From Branchiostoma floridae (lineage: Eukaryota; Chordata; Leptocardii; Amphioxiformes; Branchiostomatidae): DNA of 64,000 bases. The number at the start of each line of letters is the position of its first letter. Position 1 is the first letter of the stretch. Positions 3,835 through 59,097 of this stretch are shown piece by piece. The notes under the pieces were generated by a model. The model saw only the letters and a program-made list of their open reading frames with translations. It did no database searches and had not been told where the DNA came from. Both the position numbers and the translations under genes were made by a program. The stretch is from the NCBI RefSeq assembly GCF_000003815.2, contig NC_049993.1:10307459-10371458 (forward strand). The letters run 5' to 3'.

Positions 3835-6800
3835 GTACTAGAATTACCATTGTTGTTCTTATGAAATGACATACATATATTTGTGGTTACATTATGAAAT
3901 GGCAAGTCTCATATGCTTAAGGGTTTAATCTTATCTCTTTCAAGTTATGATATTTCAAAATGAGGTAAAATTTTTGCAAATTAGATACTGTCTCGTACGA
4001 GGATCTCTTCACCAAGGAGGAAGGCCGCTTCTTCGGTGATCGTCCTGACAACATAGCAGATTACAACAACATAGACGCAGACGAGTGTGCCCGCCGCTGT
4101 CTGCAAGGTTACGGCAGTTACGACGGCGTCAACCCGCCATGTCTGTCCTTCAACCATCGCCCGGCGGGATCGCCAGAGGGCGGCAGTGCACGGTGTTGGC
4201 TCCAAAGTAGTAACAATGACACGGCGGCATCTCCTGGGTCTGAGTGGGATAGTCAGCCTCACCGGAATTACTACCAGAGGAAACGTAACTATGTTTATCA
4301 TACTTCTGCTTGCCAAGGATGCCAGTGCTCGTTTTATTAGATTCTGTAAATGTACAACGTTATACGTGAAATGTATTGTTGCGCGCAATACTTTTTTTAA
4401 TGTTATTCTATGCTTTTTTATACCACCCACTACAAATTACTACAAAGGAAAAGTTATTAACAATACTTCGACAATGCCATTGTTGTCTATCTGGTATATA
4501 ATTATCCCCATGTCTATAGTTTTGTAATGATAAAAAATGTAGCTTAAGTTGTTAGTTTTGATATTCAGTACATAGTAAGTAGTCTAACCTTAATAAACGT
4601 ATAGTATGCATTGTTCAGATGGTGACCTTTAGTATGTGTATTGATATGCTCAATAGATACAAACTACGTTTATATTGCTTTGTATCCATAATTTATATTC
4701 TAATTGATAAATTATGAATTCCAGATATCCTAGCACCCCAAGACTGTACTGACATAGTCGCCCTTGGGATTCAGTACAGTCATGTTTACACTATTGGCCA
4801 CCCCCAACCATTCCAAGCCTACTGTGACATGGACACTGCTGGCGGCGGGTGGACGGTCATACAGCGGCGGCAGGACGGGTCGGTGCCGTTTGACAGACAT
4901 TGGGCTGAGTACGAGCAGGGGTTCGGTAATACTAGCGGAGAATACTGGCTGGGATTGGAGAACATCCACAGTCTGACAACACAGAAACAAAGTGAACTGT
5001 ACGTGTACTTGGAAGACTGGGAAATGAACAGCCGGTTTGCGCGGTACAGCACGTTTTCTGTGGGAGATGCCGGCAGCAAGTACACGGCAACAGTCACTGG
5101 ATACAACAGTTCTAGTACCGTGGGTAATGACTTAGATCCGTCAAAAGGGAGTCAGAAAATCAATAATGTAAAGTTTTCCACTAAAGATGAAGACAACGAC
5201 GACAACAGAAAGCATTGTACAGCACTCTTCGGACAAGGTGGATGGTGGAATCCCCAGAGTTGTGGCCTGGCCATGTTGAACGGACAGTATCTGGAAGGCT
5301 GTTCAATAACTTCTCCCCCGTCCTGTAGTCATGCCGATGGAATCGTCTGGCGCTCTTGGAAGGGTTACGCATATTCTTTGAAAATGACAGTGATGATGAT
5401 CAGGCCTGACAATTTTCCCGGTATGTGTCATGGCATTACTTTTGGCGTCATGCGCTTGATAGACTCATTGTAGGTAAATTTCCTTTAATATGTCTTCATG
5501 CTATAAGTCCCATTTCTTAATGGCCTTAACAATTCTTTACTCAACATTGTTTTGCTGCCAAAGGCACCTAGTGGCAAGTAAATGACATTTGGGCAAATAG
5601 AAGAAGTAGTTTGTACTCGATAACATCTATTGAGTTTGAAATAGCATGGTAATTGATTAATCTTGTTACTACTTTTCCACAGTGTCGTCATTCAGACCCT
5701 GTGAGAATATCGGAACCCTGACATCAGGACCGGAAGATTCCGGACTTTACATCTGCACATGTTCAGATAGTTGGTATGGTGCCTTCTGTGATCAGGGTAG
5801 GTAATCTATTTGATAGAGTATTTTCAGTCTTAAGACAGATTGCATGTAAAAACTGTTGGTAAGAAATTATTCAGAATTGACGTTTTAATTATCCAATGTA
5901 CCATAAAAGGAAAGCTGCGTATAGTTGCTCTGTCTTATTTGACTCGTTGTTCGTCTTTCTTCACAGAGTGCGGACATTGTTACCTGGGTCAGACTTGCGA
6001 CAGGATCCATGGAACATGTCCAACTGGAGGGTCTCACGTGTGTGAGGCAGGATACCATGGCGACAACTGTGATCAAGGTTAGCCGCCATGCATACCGAGA
6101 GTTCTATGCAGTTTTCTTTCCCTTCCAAGAGAGAAAGTAGTCTGTTCTATATCTCCGCGCATCAACAGACCTTATACGACTCGTATGAGAAGAACTTTAT
6201 TGCAAATTTTTCCCATCAGGAGTTAAGTACAGGTCACAACAAGACATGTTGAAGAAACAGTTAACAGATACAAAACTAGAAAGGCCGACATTTGCTTGGG
6301 TGCAAATACAGCATATTTCAGTCATACCCATTCCCACGCAACATTGGACTGTTCCAAGTCACTGTTCCACGTCCTGCGCAATAATGGAACATTTTGACTG
6401 TAAGTTATCCCCAAAAGAGAACTTATATTGTGAATTGATTCCAGGTCAAAACAGAGCTTGCTCAATATGCCCCGGGCCCATATGGAAGAATATAATCTTC
6501 CACAGGAGCCCCTATGCATAACTAATTGTTTTTTAGAATCGCGGCAGCTCCTATTTTTCCGAAAGTGAAAAAAAAACACCGCATCTTCCATTCAGAAGAT
6601 TTTCATCATGAAATTACATGAAGCCATTCAACAATTTCCAGTACAATAACTACGTCTAAGTACCGTTATCAGCTCCTAGTGATGTGGATACATTTATTAT
6701 TGCAGTGAACTTTTCTTTTATTCAAGTATGGCATGCGTTTTAATAATTATCAAGCAGGTGCAGGTACTGTGTACTCTCCAAGCTGAGATTAGGCTCCGGC

Positions 6801-9800: not shown

Positions 9801-12800
9801 TGAGAAAACCAACGGCAGTTGTCCCGGATGTGAGGACCCTTGGGTCGGGGACACGTGTAAAATGAGTATGTAAACATTTAATTTTCATTACTAAATGATG
9901 TACAAGTGCGCATGCAATGTTGTCCAGTCAAGATTGGCCTGTTGTCTTTTTCTAGCCTCAAAAAAGTGCTTGGATTGTGGAAAATATGGCTTTAAAGAAA
10001 TCATAAGGTGAGATTTAAATATAAAACAATCAGCGCACTGAATATTGTCGGTGGAAGGGATTCTATCACATGCACTTGATATGCTTGTCTTGATACATGT
10101 ATACACCTTAGACACGTCCCTATGTCATTCCAGTACCTGCAACAGTATCAGATGATCCAGAAAGCGTAACTCTAGTTGTCGAGAATGAAGCAACGTTCAA
10201 CTGCACCGGTCGCGGTGTTCCCCGCCCTACCGTCGTCTGGCACCACGGTAACAACGTCATCACAAGCCGAGACCAGATCAGGATAGACGTTACAGATGGA
10301 GGTCTGGTGGGAGAACAACACGTGATCCACAGCACCTTAACCATTACGTCAGCACGTCGACAAGATAACGGACAGTACGTCTGTATCTCGTCTAACGCGG
10401 CGGGGAACGACACGTCACAAGAAGCTACACTTGTGGTGCAAGGTACGATCACATCGTTCACATTTGAAATAGACATATCAGCCCCTTCTCATTCAATATC
10501 TTGTAGGTATACGTAGCTTTTATACAACAGGCAAGTAGCTTTAATTTGTGTAGATAAGTACTCTTATTTTGTATCTGCAGAACGCCCCGATGACGTGACA
10601 GTGAACGTCACCGCCGTGAACTCTACATCCCTGCACGTCACGTGGACAGTAGGAGTAACCGGTAACCTCGACATCATCGACTCCCAGGTACGCCACAAAC
10701 GGAGAGACACGGAGGACTGGGGAGACTGGGAGTCTACTGGAGTGTCCGATGAGAACGGCGATGTCTACATCCATAACTTACGACCGGCTTTTGAGTACGA
10801 TTTCCAAGTACGGGTGAACAACTCACTAGGATGGAGCGATGGTGACGGTGGGATGGGAGCTACAGACGAAGCGCGTAAGATATCTCATTACCTATTTCAG
10901 CTCATGTAGGGTTATGCTTCTCATTATACTTTAAGCCACAATGTTAGCATAAAATGTAATAACAATCTCATCTACTACACGTACAGCTCCGGGTCCTCCT
11001 CGCGATTTGCAAGCCACACCAAGCTCCCACAGCTCTGTCCACCTGACCTGGGAACCTCCGGTAGAACCTAACGGGGAAATCATCAACTACACTGTCCAGT
11101 ATGGACCGTCAGATTCGTGCAATGAAACTGAGTTTCTTCATCAAGTTACCACATCGAACGACAGCACCACTACCGTTATTGGAGACCTGGTCCCGTACAC
11201 AAACTACACATTCCGGGTACGCGGGGCAACAAGCGCAGGAGGAGGAGACTTCAGCCACTGTAACATCACAAGGACACTGGAGTACTGTGAGTAGGGCATC
11301 AACAACAAGATATAAATGCATATGCTAGAAAAATTGTAATAAAAAACAGTAACTTAAAAGAAAATAACCGAATTTAGTTTTCAATAGAAGCTATATGCAT
11401 AGTAAAAACACAGCCAATGGCTACTAGAGAACGTCTTAAGTTAATACAGTTATTTAGAGACATAGAACAATCTATCTGACACATCCTTATCTGACAATAT
11501 CCCGTAGACCCAGCAGCCCCAGTTATCCAGACGTTTACAGATCAGCACGACTGTAACTGTCAGTCCCCGAACATCGCCCGGCCGGTCCAGCTGCATGTAG
11601 CCTGGCGGCGCCCTGACCACATCCACGGCCAGCTGCAGGCGTACCGAGTCAGCCTGTACAACAGGACCGGTGGGGAACCGTTCTACCAGGAGAACGTGAC
11701 GTCAGGACTGCAGCAGGAGAACCTGACAGCTGCGGTGACGTCATCACACCTGCAGCCCGCAAACAACTACTCTGTCACGGTGAGTCAGATTTGTTTTTAC
11801 TGCAACGTTTTGTTGCAATCTTGAGAATATCAAACGCGTTATGTAATTGACATAAATCTCTTGACTTTGAATGTCTGATCCAGTTATCCATGCTATAACG
11901 ATTCATTATGCCTTGCATCCGTAGCATATATGGCTATGAAGTGAACCAGTAGTAAGTAATGTGAATCCATCTTGTCCCTTTTACATCTAACAGATATCAG
12001 CCATTAACACCTTCTACCATGGGGACGAGAGCCATCCATATGAGGTCCGCACGAGTGACGGATGTGAGTATAAGTTTTCACTTTAAACAATGTCACGTTC
12101 AGGATCTAGGAACACTAAATTGTTAAAGTACAAATCTGCAAAATTCCTTGCCTGTCAAGACTTGTACTATTTTGTTACGCACGTATACCATATTGATTGA
12201 ATTTCACAATTCCATAAGACACCATATCGCTACCCTGACTCATAATGATATAACGTTACATCAATCGTATCTTGATCATCAGGCCCAGATGCTCCGACGG
12301 TGACATGGATGGCAGACAGCGAGTGTGGAGTAAAGTGGACAGGTCCTACAGAAACCCGAGGGAGGCTGACAGGGTACAATGTAGGTACAATATTGCATGA
12401 ATGTGAAACATTTATAGCAATTTGCGTCCTTAGGCCCATAAAATTATCGAAAGATGAATCTTTAACTAGATGGGTCATAAACTAAGTACAAGTATGATCT
12501 TTTCCACACAGGTTACATATACAGACACACCACTTCATGATCCAGACGTGTCTGAACCGCGCGTCAGCTTTGACACGACGGGTTTGAATCAACACCAGTG
12601 GTCCAAGTCACTGGATGACCTCCCGGCCAACTCACGGGTCCGAGTCACAGTCCGTGCGGTAACCTGTGCCGCAGGAGACAAGGGAGAAGAGTTCACCTGT
12701 AACGTGACAAGATTTGGTGAGAAATTGTCATGTTTCTAACACAAACATCAGCAATTGTCAGCAGATAGACGTTTCAGTGAATTAACATTTTATTTGGTAA

Positions 12801-23100: not shown

Positions 23101-23465
23101 TTCACCATCGAGTGATTCATCATCATGGTACCTGCATGAAATTAATGATGTTTGAAAATATAGGGGGTTTTGACAGAACGCGAGTGTGCAAAGTAGAAAG
23201 CCTCAAAGTAAACAAAGACGCACCCCTTCTATAATGTGGTCAAGCATACAATGTGAAGACTGTGTTTGCACACTTTCACTGGGGACGTACAAAACTTGAT
23301 TTACGTTGTCCTGAGATGTCCGATGCTGTCAGTAGGAATTTGTGTTCACCACATGTGGTGATCTTAGGTTCCTTATTGTTACGAATGATTAATTGGTAAC
23401 CGTCGATGTAGCTATTCTGGTTAATGCCTTGAGACAATTGTATTGTTCTTAAAATATCTCTCAAA
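20143..23465. other. RPTP 3' UTR and intergenic region
   Basis: No exon-like open frame with splice sites or family resemblance was found. An AATAAA occurs at 21612-21617, 1.5 kb past the RPTP stop, but it is only a weak poly(A) candidate. The right half should contain the promoter and 5' UTR of the adhesion GPCR; I saw no convincing TATA box. Confidence 0.6.
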
Positions 23466-23510
23466 ATGCTTCACTCTTTCTCTGTCTGGGTAGGTTTTGA
23501 AAGACATCTA

Positions 23511-24290
23511 ATGGCTTCCATGGCCAAGCAGTGTTCTCTTTTGGTGCTGTTGTACCTAGCGCATCTCCATGTGGTCCTACCGTGCCCGGATGTCTGCACA
23601 TGTACGAACACAAACACAGTGGTCGACTGCAATGGCAAGTCCTTACAAACTGTACCACAGAACATACCTACAAGTGTGACGTTTCTCATGCTGAGGGAAA
23701 ATGACATATATCAGTTGTCAAACAGTTCTTTCTCTACTTTATCAGATTTGTACTCACTGAATTTGCAAGCCAACAAGATCAGGCATATCCCGAAAGGAGT
23801 TTTTGTATCCAGTATTCGGTACCTTTATCTGAAGAACAATGTCATAAGTGACATCGCGCATGGTGCTTTTGATAATCTCATTAATCTCCGTGAGCTGTAT
23901 CTGGACAACAATGCCATAACCAACATTCAATACGGCACTTTTACCGGGTTGGTAGAACTTCAAACTTTGTCACTTATTTCTAACGCCATAAATAGTGTTA
24001 GTAATGACAGTTTCACTGGTCTGACCAAGCTCCGAACCCTGTATCTTGAAAACAACGACATAACCACCATCCCCATTGGCCCGTTTAAACAATTACCTAA
24101 CATCGTCACACTGCATCTCCACAACAATCCACTGAGATGTGACTGTCTGCTGTATGACCTAGTACAGTGGTTTAACAGTGGCGGGCGAGATCTTTCCTCC
24201 GCGGCCTGCGCTTCTAGTCCGTTTCCCGAGCTAGTAGGTGTATCTCTGACCGATGCAGCTTCCCAGTTGTCAACCTGTGTCTCTACGGCA
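23511..24290 (+). other. Signal peptide and leucine-rich repeat domain of the aGPCR
   Basis: After the signal peptide comes an LRRNT cap (CPDVCTCTNTNTVVDC). About six 24-residue LRRs of the LxxLxLxxN type follow, e.g. LRELYLDNNAITNIQ and LRTLYLENNDITTIP. The LRRCT cap begins NPLRCDCLLYDLVQWF. All lie in one 1.8-kb exon, which is unusual beside the small exons of the rest of the gene. Confidence 0.92.
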
Positions 24291-27200
24291 TCTCAGATGC
24301 CTGACGTCATCAGTACACCAACCCCTCAAATCCAGACAACCACCCAACTGAGCAGCACGACCACAACGCCACTAATGTCGGGGGAAATGTCCTCCACTCT
24401 TCTCACCGGCAGCACTACAACTACAAACAACGCCAATACAACCAGCAAAAGTACCGTCATGAAGACCATTTCTGATTCCCCAGCCAAAACCTCACCGTCC
24501 ACTAATGCCAGTGTCCCTATGGAAATTCAAAGAGGCACAACTCCTAAAACCACGTATTCAGCTGGCAGAAACACCCTTGTCAGCTCCAGCACTGAACTCA
24601 ATTTTAAAGGCACGTCACCAGTTGCGTTAACCAATAACACATCTCGCAGTGTTACCACACGAAGCAGTCTAACTCCAAATCCTTTTACATCTTCAACTGG
24701 AAATAAAACCGACTCAAACTTGGATGATCGTCAACCGATTCCTCCAAACACAACTAGAGCTACTCTCAGCCAAAGCACGATTGCACAAATAGTTTCATCA
24801 TCGCAAGGACAAACAACCACGTCCCCTTCTCATTTGACTAGTGGTGCCACCAGTCAAAACAGCACAGTTCTACAAGTATTTTCAACACCTTCCAAAACAA
24901 CGACTTCCACACAGACCTTTTCAACAACGAGAAATGTGTCAACGACAAAACATAACACAACAGCCAGCAAGGCAACAACCAAATTCACCACAGAGCAAGC
25001 TTCTACCATCCAAAATAGCACAATTCTACGAATGACCCGAACGACACAAGAAACGACTAAGACTCGTTCTTTTGTAACAAGTAGAGTGGGAACATCAAAG
25101 CAAAATACTACAACGGACGCATTACCGTCAGAAGGAAAAGTAATCCCTGTCACTGAGCATCTTATTGGGATTCAGGACGTCACCGTTGGAGAGACAGTGA
25201 CCATACGGTGTGACGCCGCGAGCACTTCCAAAAACGTCACGTACAAGTGGTCAGTTGACGGCAATCAGGATCCTGACTACCTGGGGCAAATTCTACGGTA
25301 TGTGTCAAGAGCTTTGATGCGTATTATATACATTTGTATTTGGGTAAGCACAGGTATATGGCGTTTTGCCCAATGTAACATGTGATAATTATTGTAGCTT
25401 TCTGGTTACACCCAATGTGCTCGACTCCATAGCTACTCAAGCTGGTATCCCTTTCAAAGCTAATGAGTACTTTATAAACGCTATATTCTACGAGCTGTGA
25501 TTAAACCGTCTTTGAAGTCTTGTAAATCTAAGAGTGAGTGTTTCCATACAGCTACACTCCCCAGACGAATGGCTCTCATCGGATCCAGTGTACAGCACAT
25601 ACAGATGATGGGGAGGGCGTCTCAGACATCATTACACTGTTTGTTAAACCGGCAGCTGCAGGTTAGTTGGCCTTTCCTCACATTACCATCCTTTCAATTG
25701 AAATATCTGACGACGTTTAACCAATCTGTGACAATATGCATCACTACCCGAAGCATTGGCTTTGAATGTGACATAGCTCATTGTGAACATTGTGTCTACA
25801 TCATAAACACTGTGTCGACAGCATGAACATTGTGTCGACAGCATGCAATTTAGTGAAAATCAAAATGAAATGCAGGTTTTACATCTAATGATATGATTTT
25901 TCCCATATATACAAATGTCGTGATGTTTAGTGGAGATTCAAACCACAGTCAGCCCGAATGAGACAACAACAACAACCAACGCAACCACAAACCTGCGAAC
26001 TAGTACCGTCACCATCCCTCAGAGTTCTACCACGTTAACGACACCAAAGAGCACTACAAATCAGACAACACCATTTCAGTCAACCAAAGTGTCCACAACA
26101 AGCCAAGCACATTCAACCACCAGACAGTTTTCTACGTCACGAACTACAGAGAACACTACTGCCAAAGTTCAAACAACGACTGTCGGTATAAACGTGACCA
26201 TCCCCATGCCGGACATATTGATAGAGAGTGCAGGTGAAGACTCGGCAGCGCCTGGGAACGGCTCTACGCCAGTTATTCGTGTAACCGAGCATATAATCGG
26301 GATCCAGGACATCAGTGTGGGGGAGACGGTTTCGGTGAGGTGTGACACTGAAGGTCTGCCCGCAGTGTGTGTGACGTACAGATGGACTGTGGATGGGGTG
26401 GTCATTGATGATCAGAACGGACAAATTCTAAGGTAAAATAATTTCACAGATTTCGCTGGTAAATGTAGTACAAATGTAGGTACAAATACACTATTTAACG
26501 TAGCTTTCAATGAGTAAACATGTGCATACTGATTACGTATTTATCAATCAACAGGTATACTCCAAGGACGGACGGACCCCACAAGATCCAGTGCACGGCA
26601 ATCATCAACGGTGTAGACGGTACTTCGGACGTCATCACTGTATTTGCGTTGCCAAAAGGTATGTTTGTCCTTTAATTGTCAATGTGATTTTGGGGAATTT
26701 GTTATAGAAAGGATCAGATGTTGAATGTAATAGAGTCATCGTGATGATAGGTACGTTTCATTACAATATTGTGCAATAACATCATCAGTGAATGTCTTAA
26801 TGAAAAACAGTGCTTGCCAGGTTCACAAATTGTCTCTAGGAAATGTTCCAACTTCCATTGCACATTTGTGAATGATTTGCAGGTAAAAAGTTAGACATGA
26901 TCACGAGATGTGAAAAAGACCCTCATTCAGGAGTGAGCTGGGATAACATAGTGAAGGACTGTGATCTCCATATTCATGAACTGGCAGAGGTATGTGCAAG
27001 CCATTTCTAGATCTAACTTTTATTAGCAAAAAGCTTCGGTAGCTTATGTAATTATGTAGCGAAATGGTTTTGTAGGCAATAACAACAGTTGAAGTCAGAT
27101 ACAAGTGTAGATATTCGACGATAATGTCACTCCAGATACCCGTAACTTCCACGAATGCTCTGGACGTAGCGGGAAAGCTTCACAACATAACATCAAACGA

Positions 27201-34086: not shown

Positions 34087-37000
34087 TGAGGTTTTCTGAG
34101 TGATGATCAAACTTCCCTGGTAGCCCCTTACCATATTAAACAGATGAACAGTTCAGTAAAAAGCAAAGATGTTGGGGGAAAAACTGGCATTTGTCATCAA
34201 TTTGCTCATTTATGCTCAAAACACGATGTATACATGAATGTAGGTGGCGCTTCAACAGGCGGACATGATGATAATTGGGCTAATCACGCGGCACCTGAAA
34301 ATCCACTATTCTATGTCAACTAGTGCTTCAAAAGTTCTTGTAATTGAGTGCAATGGTGCCTGGACCTAGTAGAAAAGCTTTTTACCAACTCAACAACTAA
34401 TCCCTTTATATAATCACATTTTACGAGTCAGAACTACATACCCTAATAGAGCCCAATCTGCAGTACCGCTCCCGGCCGCCCCCTGAAAAGTGGCTAAAAC
34501 GACCGCCAAATTGCCAAATGTCCATCTTTTCGGGAATGGGGAAATCGTGAGAGGCTCTAAAAGGGGTTTGAATTTTAAAGGCATATTTGACCTTGTTTTC
34601 GAAAATACGACCATTTGAAATTAAGAATGACAAAATTTAAGAAATTTCGCAAATAAAACCATGAAATATTAAGCCATAGATGACATATTTTCTTCCCAAT
34701 TTATCAACAAAAGTAGTCGAGTGTACATGTCCTCTGAACTCACATTCTGAATGGATAACAAATCAAAATTGCAATTCGATTTTGTGAAACAAGAAGACGT
34801 TGAACAAAGGCAACGGGATTCTGACTCTTTGTTGATCAATAGATGGCATTTTTTTTACTTAAACTCCTGAAAGGCGTTTGGATTATTTGTGGATGCAATA
34901 TGTTCAAAGGCTGTAAGAAATGTACCTGGTGTAAATGTTAGCTAGCGGCTACACGATTCTCTGAAACAATACAAGCTGCCTATCGAGGAAGAAACAATTA
35001 CAGCTTATTTATATGAGCTAATATAACGACGTAATATATGTATCATGTTTTTTTCATAACTTTTTCATAAGGTGGAAAATAATCTAATAATATATACTCT
35101 GGGAGATATTTTGACAAAATCAAAACATGGCATGATATTAGAAAATCTAATTTCATTTCCAACATGATATAGACTGTTTTAGAAGAAAATGATGTTACAT
35201 CATGTGACAGAAACTGGTTGTTGAGTCTATCAAAATGTGAATACACTATTGTTCATTATCATACGAGGGGCGTTCAAGAAGTAATCCACCTGACCCATTT
35301 CCCAAAAGAAGGAGATTAATGAAACTTGGTGCAGGTATTAGTCTTTCTCTTCATAAGAACCACCCAGAGTTATGCATTTCTACCATCGTTTGATGCAGCT
35401 CTGTACACCGTTTTTGTAGGACGCCCCAGGTTGGTCCTGCAACAGATGCCTCATCAATGGCAGAAGAGGGACGACCAGGTCTGGGAGCTGTTTCCACAGA
35501 CTTCCGGCCATGTTTGAATTCACAATGCCAGCGTTTTACAAGGTCATATGATGGGGAATCATCACCATAAGTTTCTTTTATTTCATCAAAAGTCTCATTT
35601 GGTATGCGTCCTTTCAAATACAAAAACCGGATCACTGCGCGACACTCAACTGGCTCCATTTCACACCTGGTCCATTTCACACCTGACTCAGTTCAAACAC
35701 CTTTAAATCAAAAACCAAAATTAGTTCAGAGCTGTTTTTTGCAACATAACCCATAGAGATATGAATCATTACATATGCAAAATTTCATCTAGATCAGACA
35801 ACTGGAAGTGGGTCAGGTGGATTACTTCTTGAACGCCCCTCGTAATTTATCCAGCAGAAGCTGGCGTTCTGCTAAGAGATGCAAGCTTTCATAAAATAGT
35901 GTCAGATCAGTGTTTCATGTAAGACACGTTTATGTATGTTATATTGGTGTAGTTTTGTGTAAATTGATGGCTGTTCTTGTTAGATATTTCTGTTGTTGGG
36001 TGTGAAATTAACCACGGATAAAACTCTCGGAGTCCTGGTTAAAAAACAAGTCAAGTCATATGTCTTTGACGTATCTCCGGCTGGAGGGTCTTTAACAGCC
36101 AATATTCAATCAAAGGTTTCATAATGGCAGAAAAAAAATTCGTTGGAATGAAAGTATGAGAAACAGCTCTTATGTTTCTGAACAGGACAATACTTCCATT
36201 GTATATAGTTACGACCATGTTGATACAACACCAAGTTCACAAGTTACGTAAGGAACAAGTGATCTCAGGCGACCCTTATATGGCACATACTGGTCATCTT
36301 CTTTGGCTAAGTTGTCAGAGATATATTTACTAGTAACAGGTTTTTAACGAGAGAGGCCACTTGTTAAGTATGATTCATGACTTTTCTATGATGAAAGACA
36401 TACATTTACTTGTGGTTTATCACACCACCTGCACAAAAGAAATTACACTTACCTGTAGCAGCAGCTTATCAATTACACAAAATCACACCAGTATATGATA
36501 CCATACAGGAATGTGTCTTACTTGAAATACATCTGACATTATTTGATAAAAGCTAACATATATCAGTAGACCGCAAAGTTCTCATCGATAAATTATGATA
36601 ATGACCGGTTGCACTCCATCAGACTGAACTACCAATTTCTGTCAAACAACGCAACATTATCTTTTCCGTCATTTGGTGGCTTCAAAACAAAGCCTGTAGA
36701 AATAAGCTGCAGTAAACACTTGTAGAGATATGAAATAATATACATGTAGGTAACGTCACTCTCCTACCATGTCAACTTTTATGTTACATCCATTCTGTAC
36801 TCCTGTTTTCAAAAGTACTACAGTGTAGTATTTTCAAATCATTTGTTCTACCTTTGCAAATTTATTGCCGACGGCTACAAAGGTCACTCTGGCTTGATTT
36901 CATAGATGACATCCTCTGAACAATCTAAAAGAAATTGATGAGAACGCACAGCAAAATTGAAATTTAGATGCTTTAGCCCTTCAAAACGTGACAGGTTATA

Positions 37001-42057: not shown

Positions 42058-43992
42058 TTAAACCACCCTCCACTGGCGATACACTGACCTCAAGTGAAGA
42101 GGATGATCGCTGATATTGTAAAGTGGTAAGGTTTGGCCTTCGGTTTGGCCATTGCCAAGGCGGCGTTGGTGCAACATTAGTGGCATCCGCGAGGCGGCAT
42201 TGCTGCGTTGTGCTAGACCCGATGAGGTGGGAAGTTCGATCATTCGTGGCTGTGAGAGGGCAGGATCGATGTTTAAAGATGCTGAGCTATTCTTTTCCTC
42301 AGTTTTCTTCACAACTTCCTTCCTCGGCCCCCCAGGTTGCTCTACTAACCCATTCGCCTTGAAGCCAGAGTGATCATCTGTCGCCGCTGGTCCACCTGCT
42401 GCAAAGTAGACCAGCTGTTAATCAACAGAATCATTACAACAGTATGGGGATATGGATTGTACACATTGTATGATTGGTGCAAACAGCACAAAGATTAACA
42501 CAAGGCAGAGTACCAGGGACATTAAACTGTGTGAGAAACGGCGAGTTCAAGAATCGGAAGTGAAAATGCAACATAATTGGTGACTGAAATATCAGCCACG
42601 TATATAAAACTTAAAGGCATTGGGTATCTTCAACTTGATGATCATACGCATCTTATCACAACCAAGGGGAACTATGTGTTAAGGGCTACCTGTAGTGTCA
42701 GATGCCGAGGAAGGTTCCATGAGGCTGCCGTCTTTTCTATTTTCAGTCGTTTTGTTCTGTTCTACAGTCACTCCAGTTGGTGGGCTTACTTTGGTCGGTA
42801 CAGTGCGGGATGTGTCATTTCCCGATGTACTAGTATTCTTCACCGATGGACCACTAGATGTCGCTATTTGAACTGGTAGGAGAGGGATCGGTGCGTGGAT
42901 ACCTGGAGCCCTGATAGTTCTGAAGTTGATGGGTAGTCTCTGTTGGTCCTGGAAAAAAAGAAATAAGAGTTTTTAAAATTTCATAATATTCAATCTAGTA
43001 AACATTTGAACAATTGAAAGAAGTTGCCATATACATTACTACTAGAATGTGCTGTGCGTGAGTACAATTTCCTGTGTTTTGAAATGATGGCTGTACATTC
43101 AACTTACGCATGTGGAAGTTGGTAAAGTCCTGAGGATGCGGTTGATGGAAGAGACGCTGGGCAGGTTGCCTTCCGTGCAGACCCTGTCCGCTAGGAGGCG
43201 CTCACGGATCTCCCAGGCGAACATGCTCGGCTTCTCCAGCTTGTACCCCAGGATCTTCCGAACCACCAGCGGTGTCGCTACCTGCGAGAAACAACGTGAA
43301 CAAATCAAATAAAGTATGTTCTATAGCAGTAGGCAAAGGGCGTACAAACGTTCGACTTCTGAATATCAACAAAGCTTTCAACAACGGGAAACATAGATTT
43401 TGGCAACTTTACCTTTGGCCTGCTTCCTCCAATGGACCCTGGTCTGACTGTCCCCGTCTCGAAGTAACGGGACAGAATCTTGGAGACACAGCCGTGCGAT
43501 ACCAGCAACCGCCGCGAGATGTCGCATGGCCGCACGCCCATCAGCGCCAGGTGCACGATGTACCTTCTGACGTGGTCCGGTAAAGGGCGTCCGTTTACGA
43601 AGATACCACCCAGCTGGTTTATTCCCGTTTGTCCTGTAAAAGAAAATCAAGAAAGTGAAACTATACAGTGATATTTTCAACGTATAATTCTCATGCTTGT
43701 CACAAGACAGCTACGTCTGTAGAGAACTTAATAGAAACAGATGGCGATTAAACTTTAACAGTTCATGCATTTAACGTTGACTACAAAGAAATCGACTATT
43801 TTCTCTCCATTCGTTAGGGCTATGTCTTCCAAATCTTTTTATTTTCCAAAGTCTTCATATGTATACTGCATGGTAGAACATATTACTCAATGGAAGCCAA
43901 AGGTATCTTCATATCTTTGGCTTCCAATCAGAAGTGCGTCCTACTTGCGTAACGTTATATGTATACTTGATCAACTCACCTGTGTGGGACAT
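42058..43992 (-). CDS. Pox-neuro-like Pax transcription factor, paired domain only
   Basis: Complete minus-strand gene of 335 aa. Exons: 43980-43992 (ATG 43990-43992, MSHTG), 43413-43633, 43108-43281, 42690-42948, 42058-42398 (TAA; the last acceptor could also be 42395). All junctions are GT-AG and phases match. Residues 6 to about 130 are a paired domain: [65 protein letters not shown]. The choice [24 protein letters not shown] and GSIGGS matches Pox-neuro better than Pax1/9, 2/5/8, 3/7 or 4/6. No octapeptide and no homeodomain follow; the rest is Ser/Thr/Pro-rich. DNA-binding nuclear regulator; in insects Poxn acts in sense-organ and brain development. Orthology is inferred without a tree. 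Confidence 0.92.
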
Positions 43993-44991: not shown

Positions 44992-46242
44992 GCTTGATTC
45001 CATTATCACGGAAAGATTGGTCGGAAAAAATGATATTTTTAAGAATAAGAGCAACACAATAGTGTATACAGAGTCTGTAAATACGTAAATCAATCCCTGC
45101 AGTTCACAGCCTTCTCATGATAGGCATGCCAAATGTCGTGACTTCCTCATGACTTCCTCATTACAAGACTAAACCATTATCAGGGTCCCAATGACTGCAT
45201 GATCCCCCTCCCCTCCTCCCCACTCGTCCATGCATCTTTAATGACGTGTTCCTGCCTTAAAAGCCGTCATTAAGCAGCTAATGTCCCCCTTCTTCTGTCA
45301 CCTTTCCTGTTAGACAGGTGCTAACGTGGTTGTCTTTATTCCCAGTCCCTGTAATTGAAAGAGATCGCTTGGAATCATTTTGTATTCTAGCATATAGTGG
45401 CGGATGCAGCTGCTTTGGCCAGGAAACAGCTGGAACGCTTCCAACAAAGTGCTAATCTCTGGAACACGGAAACGTTATGGAATAAAGTCCTGCGCTGTCC
45501 TATTAGAACACATACAAACGGGTGAGTACTATATAGGCTGAAAGTTTTAACTGGTGTTTTGTAAGTCTATAAAGGTCCCTTGTGCGAAGGAAGCTTTGTG
45601 TTCACCTTATCTATCGATGCACCGGCGGTTCGCTCATTAGCGCTCAAGTACTCTCAGAGAAGGGTCATTATCTAGGATAATCCCATATCAAAACTACAAG
45701 ACAAAAGAATGGACAACAAGCTACGTATACAATACGGGTTATTATAGATTTAATACTTGTCACAGTACAAAAGCTCTCACGTAGAAACTTTACCTGCGTA
45801 ACGTTATACGTAATTTGGTACAGTTCCTCACATTTGACATTGCACTCATTACAAGTACATTGTAGTTATACATTGACCCACGAGCTCATTTCCTTCTAAC
45901 GTTAGAAATCTCAATATCTCATTCTTTTATCTTGGCAAAGTACGAATACTTATGTGCAAATATCTACCAGGAGACGGTGCCAAAATTTACAACTTATAAA
46001 TGTGTTTAACACGTATAATTAAGCCATACAACAAAATACAGGCATAAATACGTTGGAAATACCCTTCAGAAACACATAGTAATAGATGCTACGTTATGTA
46101 GTTTGATAATCTAGTCAAAAGATGCATTTAATGCATACGTGTATAAATAACCGTGCTCTCGGAGCATAATACTAGGAGAACCACTGGAAGGATTCGCATA
46201 TTCTTTAACATCTGTAGGCACCATAGGTGCTACCATTTGTGT

Positions 46243-47269
46243 CTAGTCTTGCCATGCATATTTATCATACATGAAATATAAATGATGGTAGCTGTTTTCG
46301 ACAGCAACCCTGAAGTCTCGCAGTACCAGGAAGTCCCGGATATGACGCAGGTACTCGGAGGGCGGGTCCTGCATATCCGGTTCCATGACGTATGAGGGTC
46401 TGCCGGGATGTTGCACATCAAGCACGTCTATCTGCAGTGGTTGGTGGACAGAACATGAATTCAGTACGAATATGATGTAACTGTTTATGTCATGGAAAGG
46501 AGAACTGATTTTGTTTTGAACGAGCCTTGATTTATACACTAAGATGAAATTATTCGTACTGACCGTGACATTGATGGCTGTTATGAACGTTTGCAGTTGG
46601 TGCCGACAGGCGGTGATGTTGGCAGCGAGGCTGGAGTGGGTCCCCTCCTCCAGCACAGCGTCCCACTCCATCTCGTACAGGTACCGCCGGGCCACGTACA
46701 TGCTGCTGTAGATGGCAGACAGGCGCGCTGCATCCTGGGGACAACATGGCGGAACTTTACTCTGGGCTGTTACATGCTCAAGATAGAAGTGAATAACACT
46801 GTTTTCTTATCACCAGAACCGCCACCTAAGTACTCATCATCAGGCACACGGACGGAAACATAGGGCAGCTTGCATTGGAGCACTCCGCTATTCTCCAAGC
46901 AGAGGTTGGATCGTGGGGGTAGTGTCCGTGGTTTAAAGCCGCTCGGAAGGGATCAGTTAGAAATCTCGGCCACTACTATCCCCCGATCCCAAACCCTGCT
47001 TGAAGAATGGCTTGACAGTTCATAATAGACCTGAACTGTATTTATCGGTGTCATTCTTGTCTGTAGTGACGACTCAACATAACATAGCCCGTACTCTTTG
47101 AGACAGGAAGTTAGCTCACAGTGCATTACGTGCAGATCAAAATCAGATATGTGTTCTAAAAGTACTATCTATAACTACAAATTACTAAATCTGGATCAAA
47201 ATAACGTACGTCCATGTCGAAGAAACCATCGTTGTAAGGGCCAGGCAGCAGGAGACCGGGAATCTCGTC
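46243..47269 (-). pseudogene. Duplicate 3' exons of the cytokine-like gene (truncated copy or alternative exons)
   Basis: Contains an exon 4 copy (46564-46734, two residue changes: DAARLS for DEARLS and ANITAC for ANLTAC) and an exon 5 copy (46243-46431) that keeps frame, splice sites and stop. The exon 3 copy (47210-47269) lost its 5' 42 bases and real acceptor. A fortuitous 'caagcag' before it would give TGA at once in the required phase. With no exon 1-2 copy of its own, the unit cannot be a free-standing gene. Its two intact exons could still serve as alternative 3' exons, or exon pair, for the parent gene. Intact coding after duplication suggests recency or use. Confidence 0.8.
46889..47007. 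mobile_element. MITE in duplication copy 1
   Basis: Inverted arms ATTCTCCAAGCAGAGGTTGG...GATCGTGGGGGTAG and CTATCCCCCGATCCCAAACC...GCTTGAAGAAT. About 115 bp, non-coding. The CTCCAAGCAGAGGTT end is shared with the elements at 6771 and 54194, so they form one broad family. Confidence 0.65.
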
Positions 47270-49554
47270 ACTGCTTGATTCCATTGTCACGGAAAAATGA
47301 TGTTTTAAAGAATAAGAGCAACAAAATAGTGTATACATAAATCAATCCCTGCACTTCACAGCCTTCTCATGATAGGTATGCCAAATGTCGTGACTTCCTT
47401 GTGACTTCCTCATTACCCAGACTAAACCATTACCAGGGTCCCTATGGCTGCATGATCCCCCTCCCCCCTCCCCACACGGCCATGCATCTTTAATGACGTG
47501 TTCCTGCCTTTAAGAGCCGTCACTAAACAGCTAATGTCCCTCTTCTTCTGTCACCTTTCCTGTTAGACAGGTGCTTACGTGGTTGTCTTTAGTCCCAGTC
47601 CCTGTAATTGAAAGAGATCGCGTGGAATCGTTTTGTTTTCTAGCATATATTGGCGGATGCAGCTGCTATGGCCAGGAAACAGCTGAAACACTTCCAAGAA
47701 AGTGCTAATCTCTGGAACACGGAAACGTTATGAAATAAAGTCCTGCGCTGTCCTATTAGTACACATACAAACGGGTGTGTACTATATTAGGCTGAAAGTT
47801 TTAACTGGTGTTTTGTAAGTCTATAAAGGTCTCTTGTACGAAGGAAGCTTTGTGTTCACCTTATCTATCAATGCACCGGCGGTTCGCTCATTAGCGCTCA
47901 AGTACTCTCAGAGAAGGGTCATTATCTAGGATAATCCCATATCAAAACTACAAGACAAAAGAATGGACAACAAGCCGCAATGCGGGTTATTATAGATTTA
48001 ATACTTGCCACAGTACAAAAGCTCTCACGTAGAAACTTTACCTGTGTAACGTTATACGTAATTTGGTACAGTTCCTCACATTTGACATTGCACTCATTAC
48101 AAGTACATTGTAGTTATACATTGACCCACGAGCTCATTTCCTTCTAACGTTAGAAATCTCAATATCTCATTCTTTTATCTTTGCAAAGTACGAATACTTA
48201 TCTGCAAATATCTACCAGGAGACGGTGCCAAAATTCACAACTTATGAATGTGTTTAACACAAATGTGTATAATTAAGCCATACAACAAAATACAGGCATA
48301 AATACGTTGGAAATACCCTTCAGAAACACATAGTAATAGATGCTACGTTATGCAGTTTGATATTCTAGTCAAAAGATGCATTTAATGCATACGTGTATAA
48401 ATAACCGTGCTCTCGGAGCATAATACAAGGAGAATCACTGGAAGGATTCGCACATTCTTTAACATCTGTAGGCACCATAGGTGCTACCATTTGTGTCTAG
48501 TCTTGCCATGCATATTTATCATACATGAAATATAAATGATGGTAGCTGTTTTCGACAGCAACCCTGAAGTCTCGCAGTACCAGGAAGTCCCGGATATGAC
48601 GCAGGTACTCGGAGGGCGGGTCCTGCATATCCGGTTCCATGACGTAGGAGGGTCTGCCGGGATGTTGCACATCAAGCACGTCTATCTGCAGTGGTTGGTG
48701 GACAGAACATGAATTCAGTACGAATACGATGCAACTGTTTATGTTATAGAAAGGAGAACTGATTTTGTTTTGTTTTGGATTAACTCTTAGCCTTGAGTTA
48801 TTCGCTAACTTAAAGATGAAATTATCCGTACTGACCGTGACATTGATGGCTGTTATGAACGTTTGCAGTTGATGCCGACAGGCGGTGAGGTTGGCAGCGA
48901 GGCTGGAGTGGGTCCCCTCCTCCAGCACAGCGTCCCACTCCATCTCGTACAGGTACCGCCGCGCCACGTACATGCTGCTGTAGATGGCGGACAGGCGCGC
49001 TTCATCCTGGGGACAACATGGCGGAACTTTACTCTGGGCTGTTACATGCTCAAGATAGAAGTGAATCGCACCCGCACTGCTTTCTTATCACCAGAACCGC
49101 CACCTAAGTACTCATCATCAGGCACACGGACGAAAACATAGGGCAGCTTGCATTGGAGTACACCGCTATTCTCCAAGCAGAGGTTGGATCGTGGGGGTAG
49201 TGTCCGTGGTTTAAAGCCGCTCGGAATGGATCAGTTAGAAATCTCGGCCACTACTATCCCCCGATCCCAAAACCTGCTTGAAGAATAGCACTTGGCTTGA
49301 CAGTTCATAATAGACCTGAACTGTATTTGTCGGTGTCATTCTTGTCTGTAGTGACGACTCAACATAACATAGGCCGTACCCTTTGAGACAGGAAGTTAGC
49401 TCACAGTGCATTACGTGCAGATCAAAATCAGATATGTGTTCTAAAAGTACTATCTATAACTACAAAGTACTAAATCTGGATCAAAATAACGTACGTCCAT
49501 GTCGAAGAAACCATCGTTGTATGGGCCAGGCAGCATGAGACCGGGAACCTCGTC
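47270..49554. repeat. Tandem segmental duplication, copy 2
   Basis: The proximal copy, containing the working exons 4 and 5 and the 3' part of exon 3 of the cytokine-like gene. The shared MITE inside both copies shows that the MITE was there before duplication. Confidence 0.95.
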
Positions 49555-51109
49555 CCCTGGATGGCTGTAGTCAGGGTCGCCAAACCTGCTGATCTTCTGC
49601 AAGAGGAACAAACAGCCATATTTCGTTAGTTGATTTGATTTCCTTCACAAGCAACTGTGACCATCACATAGCACAGAGGTTTCCATCTAGGTACGAAACC
49701 AACTAAATATTACAAAGCAAAAATATATGATTCTAGGAATGTCAAAGTTGATTTCACAAGTTGAAAAAAAAAACCCAGTGAAATGTGAATTACTTACGAA
49801 ATCCTCAAATGTGACGTTGACTTTGGTGAATAGTCGTATACTGATCTGTACGGCATTATCGAGAACTTCAACCTTGGACTGCTGAAACCCAGAGTCCGCA
49901 TGCGCAGTAGACTTCACTGATTGGAGCTGCAAGGGTACCTGGGAAGTGACGTCATTCGACGTCATCACTGAAGAGGCTGTTGAGGATGGGAACGGTTCCG
50001 GAAGTGGAGTTGATGATATTTCCGGCAAGAAAAGCAGCATTGTAACGATGACGACGTTAAAAAGACTGCAACCTGTGAAAGGAATAGAAAAGAAAAAACA
50101 GTTGGTTACAAAAACAACTACCAGAGGGAAGAGAAGTCCAAACGTCAACACCAAATACAAACCAGGATCACTAAAATCATTGAGATGCCATATCAGGAGT
50201 GGTTACAATAGTCCATTGATTTGATAAATCTATATCTATAAATAGCAAATTGAAGAGACTAACTCTGTTGGTGGCATTTCAAAAAGCGTCGAAATAAGAA
50301 CATATCGGCGAAGACCATTTCGATGTTTGAAAACTCCTCAACGTATCAAGATGAATTTCTGACAGAGAAAATTGTATCTAATGCCGCTTAAGCTTAGACC
50401 CACCATTTATACACCATGCTCACGTCCCAAGCAGCTATATTTAGATCCATATTTCAGAGGTATAAGCCATGTGAAACTATCAAACGTTCGTGGGCGGTAG
50501 ACAGTCTCGATGCAATCGGAAACGATCGTAGGTAGTTTCGTTAATGATCGGTAATCGTCGTCAGATTTGCCGAAGGCTTCCAATGTTTGACAAGGAACAG
50601 TTTTAAAAGATAAGGACGTAGCTATATAGTTGCTCCGTAACCTCTTCCAAATTTGGTAATGAGGCTATAAGCCGCTATAAGTACTAGTAATGAAAGAGTT
50701 ACCGCAATAGAAACAAAGAATACGTTTTGAAGTAAGCTCTAATGTGTGTAAAAATTCCCGTGGAAAAATATGCTTTTTTGACATGTTTGGTCAAATGGCA
50801 CATCATGCTCTATTGGCTATGATCGTCCCTGCAAAACTTTATCTATAACCGTTTACTTGCTCCATTGGAAACAATCGAAGGCAATATTTCCGGCGATACT
50901 GCCTGTCCTTTATCGGGTACAAATGACAAAGTCCACCGAAGATAACGTGTGACGTTGTATCTCTAGGCGTGAACAATCATCTCAAGACTCAGGTATGCGG
51001 AAGGTATTCTTACAAGACATAGACATTAGAGAGTAAACGGCATTGCCTGAAGAAATCGTCTAACGGAAATTCTAAATTAGACAAGCTTGTACTTACCGAA
51101 CGTAGTCAT
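48497..51109 (-). CDS. Putative secreted four-helix cytokine, IL-6/CNTF/CLCF1-like
   Basis: Complete minus-strand gene of 249 aa. Exons: 51097-51109 (ATG 51107-51109), 49798-50072, 49495-49596, 48836-49006, 48497-48685 (TAG). GT-AG borders; total 750 nt in frame. The N-terminus is a signal peptide (FNVVIVTMLLFLPEISS). A Ser/Thr/Pro spacer follows, then four predicted amphipathic helices: A (KVEVLDNAVQISIRLFTK), B (DEARLSAIYSSMYVARRYL), C (SSLAANLTACRHQLQTFI), D (SEYLRHIRDFLVLRDFRVAV). The long A-B loop has FGDPDYSHPG and LMLPGP, like the N/DPDFNPP...LP loop I recall in CLCF1. Helix D RDFLVLRDF resembles DDFWLLKEL of CLCF1. Five short coding exons with a tiny first exon also fit class I cytokines. 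Similarity is low, so the family is an inference; a different secreted helical protein remains possible. Confidence 0.72.
49165..49290. mobile_element. MITE in duplication copy 2
   Basis: Counterpart of the element at 46889-47007 at the same relative place, in intron 3 of the cytokine-like gene, with a few base differences and a small insertion near its right end. Confidence 0.65.
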
Positions 51110-51198: not shown

Positions 51199-51205
51199 TT
51201 TTATA
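51199..51205 (-). promoter_or_regulatory. TATA box of the cytokine-like gene
   Basis: TATAAAA on the minus strand, about 90 bases before the ATG at 51109. Position and sequence fit a core promoter with a short 5' UTR of roughly 60 bases. It is the only strong TATA I noticed in front of a gene in this window. Confidence 0.6.
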
Positions 51206-56900: not shown

Positions 56901-59097
56901 AACACAAGTGCCTTATTACTGGTCCGTTTGAAGAAAATTTCCTACATAGGTTTCGTACGAAGTTTCCTACAAAATTTCCTGACACTTCGACACAACTATC
57001 AGTTTGGGCAAAAACATATGCTAACAAGTATCAAACAGTGCGTGACAAACACATATTACAGTTGTAGCTAATGGCGAACTGACCTCCTCATTTTCCCGCT
57101 TGATCCATCCGTGTTCTTGGTGTGGCAAAACAGGGGGTCGGTAGTGACAGTCCTGTAGAGAGATTAACAATAACAGGCGTTCTTGAGACTGCCTTCGTTT
57201 ACTCGATTGAAACATCGTGATAAGCGCAGTTATGTGGGTATCGTCTCTATCTGAAAAGGCTGAAATGTATTCTGTAAGAAATCCTCGGCTGTAAGATGAC
57301 TCGTCTACGTACCACACATGGTGTTCTCGTGCCCATCAGTCCACCGCTGTTGTCAACACCATAACTGGTGACGTAACCACGCCTGCCAGCGTACTCCCAT
57401 ATCCACTCATTTACCCTCTTGGCAAATCTGTGACAAATTAGATGATTGACAGATCATTTGTACGACAAAGACAACATCGTATTTCTGCGCAGATGACACT
57501 GATAGACAATTTCATTGACTATTTTCTTTCCGTGTCTTCATAACTTAATGTTCCTTTTCGGATGATGAAAGTGTATGTCAAGGTTCAGTTGTTAAGTGAT
57601 AAAGGCACGAAAAGGTGATGTGTGATAAATTCCTTGAGAATGTAGTCTTTATTGCAATATTTGTGGTTACGCCTGTTAGCTACCCTTGCTGGATTCTTAC
57701 ACTCTGTTCCGGACCTTCTCCTCGTCCACCTCGTCGTACAGCTGCCCTGCGTACAGCGGGGTCAAGTTCATCACGGTCGAACCGGAAATGGCGTTCAGTC
57801 GGTTGAAGAGAAAAGCATGATGGGAGAGTGGTCCGCCATTTTGCTCTGTAGATGTTTGGAACAACAGAATAGTAAAAGAAAGCTGGGGTTAACGTTTTAT
57901 ACGTTTTTTACGATCTTTAAATCACACATTTTGAGATTAACAACGTCTAAGTAGGCCTTTCTTTTATCTTAAGTTGCAATATTGCCAATATTCAGACCTT
58001 CTGAGGCGCCATTGTACAGTTTCCTGAGAAAGGCGGACGTTTTAGGGAGCCCGCACGGCCGGTGGAAGTGAGCACGTGACACAGAATCCAGACTGATGGA
58101 CAGTACAGACAGCGGCTTCCACGATGTCTCCTTCGTCTTGGTCTCCAGAAACTTCTCACGCTGGGACTCGTTTATGTCGTCATCCGTCAGGAACTGCGTG
58201 TGATAGTTGTGTTGGTCATTTCCGCTGGGATAAAAGATAATAAAACAGACATAAAAGAAAGTTTGAGACAGATTCTATGAGCAGTGACACTTCTAAATTG
58301 TCTCAACTGCGTCAGAATCTTAATCGAAGGATCACAGACCTCAAACAATTTCAGAAATAAAATCCATTTTTGCATACTTTTGGTCCTTGCAGACGACATC
58401 GGCATAGCTTGTTTCCATGGCAACTGAGGTGGGTCCTTCATAGTAGTTCCACTGGGGATACTCCACGTACTGTCCACTGGGGAGGGGGGCCTCATGTTCT
58501 CGCCTCTCCAGAAAGTTAACACGGAAAGTCCCTGGACAGTTCACGTGTATTGTTCTGTGAGGAAATTAAAAACAGTGTAATTGATTAAATTTTGTATAAT
58601 TAAGTAAAGATGTTGTGTCTATTGTTTGATTAGCTCGAAAACCTAACCATCACTCAAGAAAAGAGAGGCCATGAGAGAAGTTTAAGAACGGTAACCAGAG
58701 AAACCAGCCCACCTGTTAATGAGTGTTGAGAATGTGGCGGTCATGTTACATCTCCACGTCACGTTTCGCCAACACAGCTCATCCGGGGCCTTCAGGTCAG
58801 GTATGGCGCATGCGCTGTCGCTCTCAGGACCAACATCTGTTGAAAATAGACTGTCCTCTGCAGACTTGAGTTGAAATAGAATATCGGCGTTGTTATTTTT
58901 CCAGATGCGAGTTTCCTCGTGTTTTTGCCAACTCTTCGTCGTTCCTTGGAAACTGGAGTCCTCAGAGACCGTTCCCTCTAGACTTGATGTGGGCTGTTTG
59001 TGCCAACTCCTGTGGTTCATAGGACGTCTGCCGCGCAGCCCCAGTGCCAAACCGTCATACAGTCTGCGGACAGGTGCTTCCTCCGTGGAATGAACTT
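53907..59097 (-). CDS. DUF229 alkaline-phosphatase-fold protein (5' end missing)
   Basis: Thirteen minus-strand exons giving 692 aa, 5' end not found: 58713-59097, 58378-58554, 57998-58224, 57701-57845, 57313-57427, 57084-57152, 56574-56798, 56058-56222, 55799-55914, 55396-55456, 55000-55083, 54373-54582, 53907-54008 (TGA). Every junction is GT-AG and phase-matched. Family hallmarks are SVLSISLDSVSRAHFHRP (nucleophile/metal region of the alkaline phosphatase fold), the GYVTSYGVDNSGG strand, DCHYRPP, AAFDLNAHHGYS, LVVFLFGDHGKSYHRF (second metal site D and H) and the Cys-rich end CWDRRVILQYCVCK. DUF229 proteins of nematodes and insects are type II or secreted proteins of unknown substrate; the metal ligands suggest hydrolase activity. 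The missing exon should encode a signal or anchor. Confidence 0.9.
54194..54319. mobile_element. MITE in a DUF229 intron
   Basis: About 126 bp, ends ACTACTCTCCAAGCAG / TGCTTGGAGAGTACT, interior arms AAAAAGCCCGAT and complementary T-rich parts largely lost. Same family as the element at 6771. Confidence 0.7.

Follow-up and report, generated by a model that had tools for sequence, protein, structure and literature searches.

The 64,000-nucleotide stretch of the Branchiostoma floridae genome analysed here (NC_049993.1, positions 10,307,459 to 10,371,458; hereafter the window) carries a candidate helical cytokine gene on its minus strand. A preliminary description, made from the sequence alone, had placed a five-exon gene for an IL-6/CNTF/CLCF1-type cytokine at 48497-51109, and the same model was recovered, with an intact open reading frame (ORF) of 249 aa, coding exons of 13, 275, 102, 171 and 189 nt in order, and four introns with GT/AG ends and phases 1-0-0-0. 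The TATA promoter it had reported is the box TATAAAA at 51199-51205 on the minus strand, whose first base lies 96 nt upstream of the ATG. Exon 1 (51097-51109) contributes only M-T-T-F and one further nucleotide before a phase 1 donor, GTAAGT. Exon 2 (49798-50072) encodes, by hydropathy and alignment, the signal-peptide core, a long Ser/Thr/Pro N-terminus and the presumed helix A; exon 3 (49495-49596) the presumed A-B loop, where FGDPDYSHP resembles FNEPDFNPP of CLCF1; and exon 4 (48836-49006), which has a homologous exon in five paralogues, the presumed helices B and C. These three exons all end in phase 0. Exon 5 (48497-48685, with the stop at 48497-48499) would supply the C-D loop and helix D (EYLRHIRDFLVLRDFRVAVENSYHHL). 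Helices were assigned to exons by alignment, not by structure.

The N-terminal hydrophobic stretch CSLFNVVIVTMLLFL has a mean Kyte-Doolittle value of 2.49, against 1.46 at most beyond residue 30, which bears out the proposed signal peptide and from which the protein is predicted to be secreted. It has three N-glycosylation sequons and cysteines at positions 6 and 173 only, leaving one in the mature part, in keeping with the few cysteines first described. Long-chain class-I cytokine genes (IL6, G-CSF, GH) typically begin with a short coding exon and have phases 1-0-0-0; the window gene does too, with the presumed helix A, loop, helices B-C and helix D on exons 2-5. The ORF, splice sites, TATA box and hydrophobic start show that the gene is real, and its signal exceeds chance because paralogues share its exons and phase-0 borders.

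These paralogues, which like the tandem partial copy treated below are absent from the preliminary description, were found in the 513-Mb assembly (431 contigs, the window lying on contig C15) by searches that used first the window protein and next one of the paralogues as query. By its sequence, the genome carries a cytokine family of at least six members including the window gene; the counts are lower bounds. Exons 2-5 were found on contig C4 for C4a (206 aa), C4b (209 aa) and C4c (208 aa), in which the first exon was not sought, and exons 4-5 were seen for C4d, also on C4, and for C17, on the contig of that name. Identity to the window gene is 24-33% for C4a-c, which have their phase-0 exon borders in common with it. 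Nine alignment columns show no variation among the six members, five of them within the helix D pattern E-x-x-R-x-x-R-D-x6-F. In C4a-c the A-B loop and helix D each hold one cysteine; the window gene has neither.

Taken together, the comparisons argue that the window gene probably encodes a secreted long-chain class-I cytokine, its closest known relatives being the IL-6-family members CLCF1 and CNTF and, with less certainty, CT-1. The comparison set consisted of human reference sequences and one cephalochordate genome. When a profile of the six members was run against 177,635 PDB sequences, CLCF1 came first (8d7h_D, E 5.4e-4), followed by CNTF twice and IL-27alpha; nothing else was returned at E<=10, and the reversed control of this search gave no cytokine match. 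Among profiles of eight cytokine groups, CLCF1+CNTF was the best for every one of the six members (10.2-23.3 bits), a level reached by none of 2000 shuffles, and the LIF+OSM profile gave at most 2.8 bits on the amphioxus genes. The similarity thus exceeds both chance and the other cytokine groups for the six-gene family, an excess that is weaker when the window gene is taken by itself. Human CLCF1 was the best pairwise match of both the window gene and the family, and in the tree CNTF and CT-1 group with the amphioxus genes. The preliminary description had lined up the presumed segments with CLCF1 and CNTF; their order holds in a single colinear alignment with human CLCF1, running from the end of helix A to helix D, but CNTF shows no similarity to the window gene (Z -0.2).

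That last value is one of several results that weigh against this assignment. Searched alone, the window gene matched no Pfam family at E<=10 and no cytokine in the PDB; this failure does not count against the cytokine idea, because human CLCF1 as a single query likewise misses CNTF. None of the six members reached a Pfam cut-off (PRF, CNTF, IL6 and LIF_OSM were among the models), the best scores being 15.9 bits for PRF against a cut-off of 22 and 12.8 for IL11 against 25.8; human CLCF1 clears PRF with 33.5 bits. Against the paralogues CTF1 gave Z of -0.2 to 1.5, showing no similarity to C4a and C4c, and the CTF1 sequence used had no PDB counterpart to confirm it. FxxK, a LIFR contact motif opening helix D, is kept in none of the six (an aromatic residue at the F position in four, a basic one at the K position in two, H in the window gene), and the sequences accordingly give no support for a LIFR-like chain being engaged as in vertebrates. 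A four-member profile gave CLCF1 14.0, GH1 8.4, CNTF 7.5, PRL 6.1 and CTF1 -2.7 bits, so that GH1 and PRL also stood above every reported shuffle (maximum 5.7). The shuffle controls ignore helix periodicity, a weakness partly offset because PDB-wide and reversed searches were run. Finally, the four amphipathic helices first reported were not confirmed: by hydrophobic moment, on two measures, only one of four segments of the window gene beat shuffles at p<0.05, the same test giving three of four on at least one measure for human CLCF1 and one of four for C4c. The IL-6/CNTF/CLCF1-type identity originally proposed is partly supported: the six-member profile favours it, but neither a Pfam cut-off nor a conserved FxxK accompanies it.

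Another reading of the same matches is that the gene is a long-chain class-I cytokine predating the split of the vertebrate subfamilies, the lead of CLCF1 reflecting only its slow evolution. We regard this as unlikely, given that the PDB matches directly after CLCF1 were CNTF and IL-27alpha, and that the A-B-loop motif F-x-x-P-x-[FY]-x-x-P, a pattern written post hoc, is limited to the window gene, CLCF1 and CTF1 among 21 sequences.

A third possibility concerns growth hormone (GH). The available portions of two papers describe amphioxus GHl as a 208-aa type-I helical cytokine and a forerunner of GH (PMC9010856, PMC5376476); in one of them it is offered as evidence for growth hormone predating vertebrates, and several further, very divergent type-I cytokine genes are mentioned (PMC9010856), which may include the window gene. 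The GHl quantitative PCR primers, taken from the portion of the paper that holds Table 1 (PMC5376476), map to exons 4 and 5 of C4b with 6/25 and 5/23 mismatches, where shuffled primers (200 each) never came closer than 8 and 7. The translated GHl primers read LFLDEVL and TQPTDIT, C4b itself LFLDEVL and IPPTDVT. Because its primers fall in these exons, GHl very probably represents the orthologue of C4b in B. japonicum and hence belongs to the same family as the window gene. That family, very probably with GHl included, is by sequence probably of CLCF1/CNTF type; among the matches listed in the open-licence PMC literature, in the portions seen, amphioxus GHl was nowhere assigned to that type.

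It could instead be proposed that the whole family belongs with growth hormone and prolactin, the view published for GHl, and that the window gene is a divergent GH-like paralogue. In favour of this, the window gene's GH+PRL profile score was matched by just 7 of 2000 shuffles, and a grouping of the amphioxus genes with GH/PRL was not rejected by the approximately unbiased (AU) test (p 0.183), although the best tree places them elsewhere; both results count against a CLCF1/CNTF origin. However, the GH+PRL profile gave 3.9 (the window gene), 2.7, 0.7, -1.1, -2.1 and -1.6 bits on the six genes, below CLCF1+CNTF in each case, no GH or PRL chain appeared at E<=10 in the six-member PDB search, and Pfam returned no GH family for any member. 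GH and PRL have a disulphide joining the A-B loop to helix D and a C-terminal cysteine pair; with cysteines 6 and 173 only, the window gene does not show this pattern, and C4a-c have the first two places and no C-terminal pair. A resemblance of exon 4 to prolactin helix D was rejected as short and in the wrong helix, since the stretch lies in helix B. We therefore consider a GH/PRL-type family improbable.

The published GHl receptor primers match a locus at C15:19.05 Mb (2/26 and 2/24 mismatches), 8.7 Mb from the window gene. It comprises an immunoglobulin (Ig) exon, two cytokine-receptor modules with WSEFS, an assembly gap and further fn3 exons, and read by eye it also has a transmembrane stretch and a box-1-like WPKIPGPEN; with the gap between its parts, it may be one gp130-like gene or two genes. 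Pfam identified Ig, fn3 and EpoR_lig-bind (40.7 bits, cut-off 27.3), with IL6Ra-bind just under its cut-off. With approximate joins, the ectodomain was closest to the prolactin receptor (E 9e-34), followed by CRLF1 (2e-24, the best match also covering the Ig domain), gp130 (3e-17), the leptin receptor (2e-15) and GHR (2e-12). CRLF1 is the soluble partner of CLCF1. With regard to the gp130-like receptor suggested as a check at the outset, an Ig-bearing class-I receptor locus is present, among whose matches gp130 ranks third. The likeness to the prolactin receptor tells against a simple CLCF1 story and favours part of the published view; the sequence fits a receptor near the root of both the IL-6-type and the GH-type groups. 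The cytoplasmic part (C15:19040232-19041056, minus strand) has the tyrosine motifs NYVQV, NYTQV, DYVQS and DYVQS, in which Gln stands at +2, so that they are not the YxxQ STAT3 motif of gp130.

Further first-module exons of class-I receptors (C...CWW) lie at C7:20654350-20654950 and C7:19439600-19440200; amphioxus therefore has several class-I cytokine receptors. Searches with gp130 and CNTFR proteins gave mostly fn3 matches, one gp130 match falling within the C15 receptor locus, and two gp130 matches that were read closely had no WSxWS. The IL6Ra-bind search returned weak matches only, and that with LIFR_D2 returned none, its controls likewise unmatched, so that it is uninformative.

If the window protein is a CLCF1/CNTF-type cytokine, it would fold, as others of its class, into an up-up-down-down four-helix bundle and be secreted and glycosylated. 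It would then join two class-I receptor chains, each with Ig domain and cytokine-receptor module, whose box 1 would recruit and activate JAK, leading to STAT activation. More broadly, we lean towards the view that invertebrate chordates already had a multi-gene CLCF1/CNTF-type system, with at least six ligands and several class-I receptors combining Ig domain and cytokine-receptor module. GHl would be one of these ligands and not the GH ancestor, and its receptor, with a prolactin-receptor-like cytokine-receptor module and an Ig domain like that of CRLF1, CNTFR and gp130, would lie close to the shared root of the IL-6-type and GH-type axes. In the accessible part of a metazoan survey, IL-6-family ligands are given as vertebrate-only, with BLAST thresholds set at E 1e-5 and 30% identity (PMC13203501, 2026). 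Our results suggest that this statement and that of GHl as an early GH need joint revision. How gp130-type and GH-type signalling arose can now be tested directly in a laboratory animal, with the family, the receptor locus and a duplicated gene copy as material.

The duplicated copy stems from a tandem repeat of ~2.2 kb on the minus strand, in which the unit from the rest of exon 3 to the 3' flank of the intact gene (47333-49554) recurs as copy B (45081-47269), 94-98% identical in repeat blocks. Copy B comprises a partial exon 3 (47210-47269), exon 4 (46564-46734) and exon 5 (46243-46431), and lacks exons 1 and 2 and the start of exon 3. The copies differ at 1/189 sites in exon 5 (99.5% identical), 5/171 in exon 4 (97.1%), 3/60 in the shared part of exon 3, 44/1155 in the 3' flank and 12/475 aligned sites in intron 3 (97.5%). 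Conservation of intron 3 equals that of exon 4; the duplication is too young for much visible constraint. Intron 4 (48686-48835, minus strand, 150 nt) is open in frame in both copies, and its retention would add 50 residues; the copies differ there at 12/132 aligned sites (91% identical) and by 18 gap columns, in indels of 6 and 12 nt. Coding use of it is less likely, and a genuine intron is favoured because it diverges faster than exon 5 and sits at an identical position, in identical phase, in the paralogues. That the gene is damaged or unexpressed after the recent duplication, as the truncation of copy B and the barely visible constraint might suggest, or that it retains intron 4 as coding, is very improbable, since the intact copy keeps its complete ORF and canonical splice sites and pN is 0.012 against a pS of 0.054, albeit from just 4 non-synonymous and 5 synonymous changes. 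An in-frame ATG stands directly before the partial exon 3 of copy B, so that copy B might conceivably yield a protein missing signal peptide and helix A, or provide the intact gene with alternative 3' exons.

Elsewhere in the window, a PAX (paired-box) domain (43308-43646 minus, Pfam E 2.6e-39) lies ~5 kb from the cytokine gene and presumably resembles pox-neuro most closely, a Pax class that vertebrates have lost. Downstream of Ig and fn3 exons (10112-11821 plus), sequence resembling a receptor-type tyrosine phosphatase was read by eye. The remaining features are a fibrinogen C-terminal domain (4718-5470 plus, E 8e-64), a long leucine-rich-repeat ORF (23433-25382 plus) with a weak LRRNT match under cut-off and then a Thr-rich stretch, a DUF229 exon (57972-58274 minus) and a Mos1-type transposase helix-turn-helix (35354-35692 minus).

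Compared with known systems, the window gene shares with CLCF1 the A-B-loop pattern and the register of helix D (Y-L-R-H-I-R-D-F against F-L-Q-K-M-D-D-F), and differs in its long Ser/Thr/Pro N-terminus, the lack of FxxK, fewer cysteines and five coding exons, vertebrate CLCF1 having three. CNTF was the second PDB match of the six-member profile; neither CNTF nor CT-1 is known to have a signal peptide. With LIF and OSM, C4a-c share a helix D cysteine seven residues after [FYS], in the same register, whereas Phe occupies this position in the window gene; the cysteine pair of A-B loop and helix D resembles GH too. In length, C4a-c (206-209 aa) are close to GHl, given as 208 aa in the available text; the window gene, at 24-33% identity to C4a-c, has a longer N-terminus and lacks that cysteine pair. 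The IL-6-family ligands surveyed, as far as the accessible part of that paper presents them (PMC13203501), would be of the same ligand class as the window gene.
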